This document shows positions 1,355 through 2,772 of a DNA stretch of 40,964 nucleotides, one piece after another. The stretch is from Paracoccaceae bacterium (GTDB lineage Bacteria; Pseudomonadota; Alphaproteobacteria; Rhizobiales; Stappiaceae). Each line of letters opens with the position of its first letter. Positions within the stretch are counted from its first letter, which is position 1. Where the stretch lies: contig JABXHV010000081.1 of the NCBI GenBank assembly GCA_013373445.1, forward strand, positions 1-40,964, read 5' to 3'. The notes beneath the pieces were generated by a model. That model had not been told where the DNA came from. It did no database searches and saw nothing but the letters and a program-made list of their open reading frames with translations. A program made the position numbers and the translations under genes.

Positions 1355-1642
1355 TCAGTAGGTTGGACGGCGAATAAAACCGGCAACGTTCGGCGGATTG
1401 CAAGGTGTCGCCAGAATACGATCGATCCGCGTGCCTTCAGGGCCTTCACTGCACATGTCGATCATCTTGTGCAAGCGATCATCCCGGCCGTGAAAAATTG
1501 CTTCCACGACGCCGTCACGGCGGTCTCGTATCCAGCCTGTTAGACCAAGCTTGTCAGCCCCCTCAACGCAGAACTCACAATACCCGATGTCCGTGAGATC
1601 ACCCATGATGGTGACATAGATACTTTTGATGACATCTGACAT
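1355..1642 (-). CDS. Acylphosphatase-like protein lacking the catalytic residues
   Basis: The 95-residue protein has the acylphosphatase length and fold pattern, with a clear KLGLTGWIRDRRDGVVEA block. In active acylphosphatases a glycine-rich phosphate loop ends in GF-Arg, and an Asn follows GWV-R. Here the loop reads GDLTDIGYC, so Cys22 stands where the catalytic Arg is expected and Asp40 replaces the catalytic Asn. It is therefore probably not an acylphosphatase by the known mechanism; a binding or regulatory role is possible. Its ATG overlaps the stop of the upstream transporter gene (TGATG), so the two are likely translated in a coupled way and share the FMN riboswitch. Confidence 0.8.
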   Translation of the reverse strand: MSDVIKSIYVTIMGDLTDIGYCEFCVEGADKLGLTGWIRDRRDGVVEAIFHGRDDRLHKMIDMCSEGPEGTRIDRILATPCNPPNVAGFIRRPTY

Positions 1643-2565
1643 CAGTCTAGCGCGCGCTCCAACTCATCATCCAAAGCCTCGCCAAGCAGAGACTCGTGTC
1701 CCTCATTGTGAACGACATACAATGAGGCACCAACGATAATGATTGCTCCCCCCCAGAAAAAACCGGGAGGCGCGTAGGAAAACACAAGCCATCCGCCAAT
1801 CACATTCATGATGAGCTTCAGATGATCAAATGGCTGGATATAGGTCGCATCCGCCTTGGAGTAGGCAACGGTCAGAAAATAGTTCGCTGCGACCGTGAAA
1901 AGGCCTGTCGCCGCAATCACGGCGATTTCTGCACCGTTGCTAGGAAGCGCAAGCCCCTCGCCCAGCGCAAGAGCAAGATTCACCGGCGTCAGCAACAGCA
2001 GCATGTAGACCGTGATGGTGTCGTTGGACTCAGAGGCCGTCAGACGCTTGGTGATGACTGAAACACCAGCCCAAAAGGCAGCAGCAGAAATCGGATAGAG
2101 CGTCGCCATCACGAATTTATCAGACCAGGGCTCCAGAATGATCATTGCCCCGGCAAATCCGGTCAGCGTGGCAAGCGCACGCGGCAAGCCGACCCGCTCA
2201 CCCAGGAAGAGTTTGGCTCCGATGATGACGAAGAAAGGTGACGTCATGACCAGGGCAATCGCTTGCCAGATCGGCACTTGTGCCAGTCCTGCTCCCCAAA
2301 GCTGAACACCAACAACGGCAAAACAGATCCGCAGGCAGTGCAGGCGCCAGTTGCGTGTCCTCAGCTTTTTCGAACCCTGACGTATGATCCACGGAACGGC
2401 GAACAGCAACGCAGTCGCATATTGCCAGAACACTACAGAGACCGAGGGCATTGAGAAGGTCATGGTGGCCGACTGGATCGACACATTGACGGCGGCAAAA
2501 CAGGAGCCGGCAAGAACCATCAGGACTGCTGCATATATCGGGTGCTGTTTTTGAGGTAGGGTCAT
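1642..2565 (-). CDS. ribN: DMT/EamA-family transporter, probable riboflavin importer RibN
   Basis: This is an inner membrane transporter of the drug/metabolite superfamily. The 307 residues show about ten hydrophobic segments in two EamA repeats, with typical phrases such as VLAGSCFAAVNV and FFVIIGAKLFLGERVG. The family alone does not give the substrate. The FMN riboswitch just upstream points to riboflavin uptake, as described for RibN proteins of Rhizobium and Vibrio. I place the start at the ATG at 2565, because a longer in-frame opening to 2703 would translate through the riboswitch. GGACGAG lies five bases before this ATG. The C-terminus is acidic (LDDELERALD). Confidence 0.85.
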   Translation of the reverse strand: MTLPQKQHPIYAAVLMVLAGSCFAAVNVSIQSATMTFSMPSVSVVFWQYATALLFAVPWIIRQGSKKLRTRNWRLHCLRICFAVVGVQLWGAGLAQVPIWQAIALVMTSPFFVIIGAKLFLGERVGLPRALATLTGFAGAMIILEPWSDKFVMATLYPISAAAFWAGVSVITKRLTASESNDTITVYMLLLLTPVNLALALGEGLALPSNGAEIAVIAATGLFTVAANYFLTVAYSKADATYIQPFDHLKLIMNVIGGWLVFSYAPPGFFWGGAIIIVGASLYVVHNEGHESLLGEALDDELERALD

Positions 2566-2570
2566 TGCCA

Positions 2571-2613
2571 CTCGTCCGGTCATCTGGTGGGGACGAGCAC
2601 AGTGTTCCGGACG
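2571..2613 (-). promoter_or_regulatory. Riboswitch expression platform with alternative helices over the ribosome binding site
   Basis: The Shine-Dalgarno-like GGACGAG of ribN (2571-2577) can pair perfectly with CTCGTCC at 2591-2597. The overlapping stretch 2573-2579 can instead pair with CGTCCGG at 2607-2613. The two seven-base-pair helices exclude each other. Both involve ribosome binding site bases, and no U-tract follows. I infer that FMN controls translation initiation here rather than transcription termination. Confidence 0.55.
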
Positions 2614-2638
2614 CAATTTATGCATCAGGATCGCCTGT

Positions 2639-2772
2639 ATTCTCTCACATCCGGACTTTAACCGTCGGCTTCGGAATCTCACCGAAATCTGCTGACCCTC
2701 CACACTGGAGGCGCTCGCGGGCTAGGGTTTCCCCACTACCGCCGGTGGGGAATTTCACCCCGCCCCGAGAAT
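2639..2772 (-). promoter_or_regulatory. FMN riboswitch (RFN element)
   Basis: On the minus strand the conserved RFN blocks appear in order: GGGGCGGGGTGAAATTCCC, then ACCGGCGGTAGT, AGCCCGCGAGCG, GGTCAGCAGA, CGGTGAGATTCCG, AGCCGACGGTTA and AGTCCGGATG. The closing helix P1 pairs ATTCTC (2767-2772) with GAGAAT (2639-2644). This aptamer binds flavin mononucleotide and usually represses riboflavin synthesis or import genes when FMN is abundant. It lies 73 bases before the ribN start. Confidence 0.96.

Follow-up and report, generated by a model that had tools for sequence, protein, structure and literature searches.

A Probable Riboflavin Importer of the RibN Type behind an FMN Riboswitch in an Alphaproteobacterial Genome

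Introduction

Which compound is handled by a transporter whose gene stands behind an FMN riboswitch is the question raised by a locus on the minus strand of a 40,964-nucleotide stretch of alphaproteobacterial DNA, the whole of which is called the window in the following. A first-pass annotation had recognized an RFN element directly before a transporter gene of the DMT type and had proposed, from this position, the import of riboflavin by a protein of the RibN type.

Such importers are known from the literature, and the statements quoted here from the different articles are those of the available excerpts. The RibN proteins of R. leguminosarum, O. anthropi and V. cholerae allow the entry of riboflavin and FMN (PMC4418817, citing the 2013 paper PMC3807449), and the ribN genes of alphaproteobacteria, not those of gammaproteobacteria, are associated with an FMN riboswitch (PMC4418817). 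In E. coli, RibN from R. leguminosarum confers both the uptake of 3H-riboflavin and, when riboflavin is supplied at 2.5 uM, the rescue of a ribB mutant. Unlike RibN, the RfnT-like proteins give no such uptake or rescue in the excerpted account (PMC6362234). Similarly, RibN from A. salmonicida gives rescue at 2 uM riboflavin (PMC10012899).

The best explanation of the locus, held here with high confidence, is that of an FMN riboswitch associated with ribN, the gene for a riboflavin importer of the DMT superfamily, FMN lowering the expression of ribN and import supplementing synthesis. This explanation draws on the aptamer and its position, on the conserved pairing with the transporter gene, on the homology of the transporter and on the biosynthetic genes located elsewhere in the genome. 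The features of the locus are collected in Table 1.

Table 1. Features of the riboswitch-transporter locus and its surroundings in the window.
Feature	Positions	Strand	Basis or remark
FMN riboswitch aptamer (RFN element)	2776-2635	minus	RF00050, 116.4 bits, full length
Leader from aptamer to start codon (presumed expression platform)	2634-2566	minus	read from sequence
7-bp G+C-rich hairpin	arms 2597-2591 / 2577-2571	minus	fold prediction with and without imposed aptamer
ribN-type EamA/DMT transporter gene, 307 aa (probable)	2565-1642	minus	PF00892; riboswitch pairing; tree
Acylphosphatase gene	1355-1642	minus	PF00708; start shares one base with ribN stop
HAD-type phosphatase gene	2904-3590	minus	Pfam; ahead of riboswitch, not behind it
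677-aa frame	3587-5620	minus	resembles biotin-dependent carboxylase alpha chain by eye

The Aptamer and the Transporter Gene

Compared with 4227 Rfam families, the whole window gave a single match at the gathering score, that of RF00050 (E = 1.2e-26). The element belongs to this family as a full-length member, since all of the 138 model positions (1-138) are covered and the score of 116.4 bits largely exceeds the curated gathering score of 66.2, which together rule out a chance match. The covariance model thus bears out the RFN element claimed in the first-pass annotation, the boundary of which, at position 2772, falls 4 nt within the 5' end of the model. The end of the aptamer is separated by 69 nt from the ATG codon at 2565 of the transporter gene. 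By analogy with other members of the riboswitch family, the aptamer is predicted to bind FMN and to change the expression of the gene located behind it.

The transporter contains two stretches of the EamA family (PF00892, E = 2.1e-23, 83.5 bits vs a cut-off of 28.2), and in this respect resembles the RibN proteins of R. leguminosarum, O. anthropi, V. cholerae and A. salmonicida, which are homologous EamA/DMT proteins. Among the NCBIfam models only TIGR00950 responded, with 27.8 bits, far under its cut-off of 230.2, and no relative with a solved structure was found by sequence at E <= 0.01. The earlier remark that transporters of this kind are annotated without a substrate consequently holds for Pfam, which gives EamA only, and for the sub-cut-off match of NCBIfam as regards this protein, but not for the literature, where the RibN family (2013) and its alphaproteobacterial riboswitch are already in print, as excerpted from PMC4418817. 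Two further in-frame ATG codons, at 2625 and 2583, read from the sequence, may serve as alternative starts. A longer version of the frame, 353 aa from a GTG codon at 2703, was rejected as implausible because its start falls within the aptamer.

Conservation of the Pairing among Relatives

The genomes compared numbered 61, namely the window's own genome, 36 genomes of the same genus and 24 of the same order. Homologues of the transporter (E <= 1e-30) occur in 30 of these 61 genomes, the window's own included, the proteins of the 29 relatives being 43-67% identical to that of the window. All 30 homologues are preceded, on the same strand and 69-228 nt ahead of the start of the protein match, by an FMN riboswitch (E <= 0.001). 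The window transporter thus possesses the upstream FMN riboswitch that characterizes alphaproteobacterial ribN in the excerpts of PMC4418817. More generally, with stricter filters at which some weak matches are lost, FMN matches at E <= 0.001 were obtained in 39 of the 61 genomes (52 matches, of which 49 over the curated cut-off), among them 9 of the 31 genomes devoid of a transporter homologue.

The gene located downstream was tested with protein models for 4 (L003, L016, L030 and L031) of the 22 FMN matches that do not stand ahead of ribN. At locus L003 the riboswitch is followed by ribD, and at L016, L030 and L031, which belong to relatives without a ribN match, it precedes the gene for a lumazine synthase of the second type (ribH2, NF009084). 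Since three relatives lacking ribN possess a riboswitch before NF009084, different lineages may have put import, ribH2, or both under FMN riboswitches. The aptamers ahead of ribH2, found in some genomes of the genus and the order, belong to the same family as that of the window but differ in the nature of the gene that follows, a synthesis gene instead of an import gene. One genome of the same order (G041) contains three FMN riboswitches (L003, C6 and C65), one of which precedes ribD and another a ribN homologue with 43% identity.

The Acylphosphatase Gene and Its Neighbourhood

The overlap of the ribN stop by the acylphosphatase gene is the less common trait of the window locus and distinguishes it from the RibN family. 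In 24 of the 28 same-genus genomes with ribN (window's included), an acylphosphatase match occurs at <=6 kb downstream of ribN and on its strand, and a HAD gene lies upstream within the same distance (<=6 kb) in 24 of the 28 as well. In the same-genus genomes that contain the HAD gene and are devoid of ribN, the acylphosphatase gene follows the HAD gene in 8 of 8 cases, on the same strand and at 86-6716 nt, so that ribN seems to have been acquired or deleted within a HAD-acylphosphatase neighbourhood that is itself conserved.

The loci of 14 relatives were checked for the junction between both genes, and an acylphosphatase match is present in 11 of them. At loci L013 and L022, the sole in-frame start codon of acylphosphatase lies across the ribN stop, with an overlap of 4 bases; an ATG codon with the same 4-base overlap is one of two candidate starts at L027, and at L028 the two genes may or may not overlap. 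In seven other loci, the two genes are 26-107 nt apart at any listed start. Because of this distribution, a possible coupling of ribN with acylphosphatase is confined to the window and a few relatives and does not extend to the genus.

It is unlikely that the riboswitch governs ribN and acylphosphatase as a translationally coupled unit tying an acyl-phosphate hydrolase, possibly with a flavin-related role, to the flavin supply in this lineage. The overlap with ribN common to two relatives means that a functional partnership is not disproved, but it was set aside, since the acylphosphatase gene still trails the HAD gene where ribN is absent and hence belongs to the neighbourhood. A text search of the available literature found no publication in which an FMN riboswitch and acylphosphatase occur together. 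The acylphosphatase is probably co-transcribed with ribN, as a neighbour that probably takes no part in flavin supply.

Relation to the RibN Family

The first criterion given for RibN in the excerpts of PMC4418817 is an identity of >38% over at least 80% of the length with the R. leguminosarum prototype. The comparison was made with a homologue from Rhizobium altiplani as a stand-in for this prototype, and gave 54% identity over residues 13-292 of 307. The R. altiplani gene was found in a collection holding one genome per species, searched with the single window protein and thus reaching close relatives only, where the confirmed loci were two in number, the other one belonging to a Rhodobacteraceae bin (50% identity). 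RF00050 is located upstream of both genes, with 106.6 bits in R. altiplani and 112.8 bits in the Rhodobacteraceae bin.

In a collection of plasmids, the best among the 30 matches listed, of 470 records with a match, came from Aeromonas caviae (47%) and from five Vibrio records (43-44%), identity falling to 33% and lower after Vibrio among these listed matches. With lengths of 1.7 to 4.9 Mb, the best records, those of Aeromonas and Vibrio, could in fact be chromosomes classified among the plasmids. The window protein is 54% identical to its RibN-like homologue of R. altiplani and 43-48% identical to those of Vibrio and Aeromonas. Unlike the window locus, the gammaproteobacterial homologue loci lack the FMN riboswitch (none in the 3 fetched), in agreement with the statement in the excerpts of PMC4418817 that gammaproteobacterial ribN is devoid of it. 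None of 5 loci of generic DMT transporters displayed an FMN riboswitch either.

A tree was built from 33 rows, comprising 28 RibN-like proteins (the window protein, 21 of the same genus, one of the same order, those of R. altiplani and the Rhodobacteraceae bin, 2 from Vibrio and 1 from Aeromonas) and 5 generic DMT proteins. It took in 22 of the homologues of the 29 relatives, leaving out those of G002, G011, G021, G026, G035, G036 and G041, and 6 duplicate rows were dropped. A single branch, with a length of 3.07 and a support of 100/99, divides the 28 RibN-like from the 5 generic rows; the tree program issued a warning about long branches coming together, that of the window protein (0.74) being one of them, and the grouping is to be read from a tree built with these long branches.

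The RibN-type reading of the first-pass annotation is supported by the riboswitch pairing in 30 of 30 homologues, by the R. altiplani homologue with its own riboswitch, and by the grouping in the tree, subject to its long-branch warning. Judging from sequence comparison, the assignment of the transporter to RibN is well supported, though not proved, and its gene very probably encodes the importer of riboflavin (vitamin B2) of the host, riboflavin being the substrate expected from the characterized homologues.

An alternative would be that the transporter moves another flavin-related compound, such as FMN, a lumazine or pyrimidine precursor, or a flavin analogue, by import or export tuned by the riboswitch. 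DMT proteins are known for their varied substrates. In addition, the window protein shares only 43-54% identity with the homologues from the genera with a characterized RibN (Rhizobium, Vibrio and Aeromonas), and RibN itself reportedly admits FMN as well as riboflavin, according to the excerpts of PMC4418817. However, the window protein clusters with RibN-like proteins from Rhizobium as well as from Vibrio and Aeromonas, genera whose RibN proteins are reported as riboflavin importers in the excerpted texts (PMC4418817, PMC6362234, PMC10012899), and an export function would be surprising downstream of a riboswitch whose normal response to FMN is to shut expression down, which makes another cargo quite improbable. 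A chance rearrangement that placed the riboswitch before a generic DMT transporter, and left it uninformative on the substrate, would account for the lack of a substrate from Pfam or NCBIfam but is hardly credible, being contradicted by a pairing kept in every one of the 30 homologue genomes at such a divergence of the 29 relatives' proteins.

The Leader and the Mode of Control

Under the riboflavin-import reading, bound FMN would lower the expression of ribN when FMN is plentiful, and perhaps also that of the overlapping acylphosphatase gene, whereas ribN would be made when FMN is scarce and riboflavin imported on top of the cell's own synthesis. Repression, rather than another response to FMN, is what the riboswitch family leads one to expect.

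No terminator-like site was found between the aptamer and the start codon on the minus strand, and the predicted 7-bp hairpin of the leader ends 5 nt ahead of ATG 2565; because of these two features, we lean towards a control at the level of translation, which is a guess. Hiding of the ribosome site is reportedly the usual mode for the FMN riboswitch in Gram-negative bacteria.

Against such a control, energy folding of the leader RNA, in which the energies of the ligand and of tertiary contacts are not counted, revealed no switch between mutually exclusive folds. The best fold of the free RNA (-92.1 kcal/mol) is devoid of the aptamer, and the start-codon hairpin occurs in both folds, with a mean unpaired value of 0.22 for the free RNA and 0.23 with the aptamer imposed. 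Around ATG 2565 the unpaired value rises a little when the aptamer is imposed (0.43 to 0.48), and only the surroundings of ATG 2625 close (0.50 to 0.35). The Shine-Dalgarno stretch scored in these foldings was CCGGACGAG, a few bases off the stretch labelled as such, GACGAGUGG.

A hairpin ahead of the start is also present when 20 leaders from the same genus are folded to a consensus; its seven pairs are kept in 18-20 of the 20 rows, and the changes in pairs are one-sided only, none occurring on both sides. The alignment comprised 20 of the leaders of the 29 relatives (L049-L068), picked by eye, and left out L043-L048, L069-L071 and the window. Since the aligned hairpin, as judged by eye, is more distant from the start than that of the window in several rows, the two hairpins may be different features.

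For the promoter, a weak candidate is a sigma-70-like site of the minus strand (2924-2895), the region containing 2 promoter-like sites vs 0.9 in shuffled sequences.

For A. salmonicida, R. leguminosarum and V. cholerae, the excerpts of PMC10012899 state that ribN is expressed to the same degree with and without riboflavin, and for this reason external riboflavin may have little effect on ribN expression in the present host too.

Riboflavin Synthesis in the Host

Like the bacteria from which RibN is known, the host of the window locus also possesses genes for riboflavin synthesis. A RibBA protein combining DHBP synthase and GTP cyclohydrolase II domains is encoded on contig C22 of the host genome (G000:C22), and ribH, ribE and ribD lie near one another on another contig (G000:C78). 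The whole genome (3,641,490 bases in 201 contigs) yielded only one RF00050 match at E <= 0.001, so that ribBA, ribD, ribE and ribH have no riboswitch of their own and, in this genome, import alone stands behind an FMN riboswitch. With these four genes present and no second FMN riboswitch, import would therefore supplement synthesis.

The host RibBA (L002 1270-2583) displays about 75 extra N-terminal residues, in which a weak match to a Cro/C1-type HTH domain occurs (PF13443, E 8e-4, under the curated cut-off). This extension might represent a DNA-binding addition to an enzyme of riboflavin synthesis.

Significance

The pairing of the FMN riboswitch with ribN has already been described in related bacteria, and the window offers a further case, real but ordinary, that leaves the understanding of riboswitches and of RibN unchanged. 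Its interest is of a more practical order, in that a transporter named only EamA by the libraries used can be assigned, with good confidence, to riboflavin import. It also adds a case of a cell whose FMN riboswitch precedes only the import gene, the genes for synthesis being without one.
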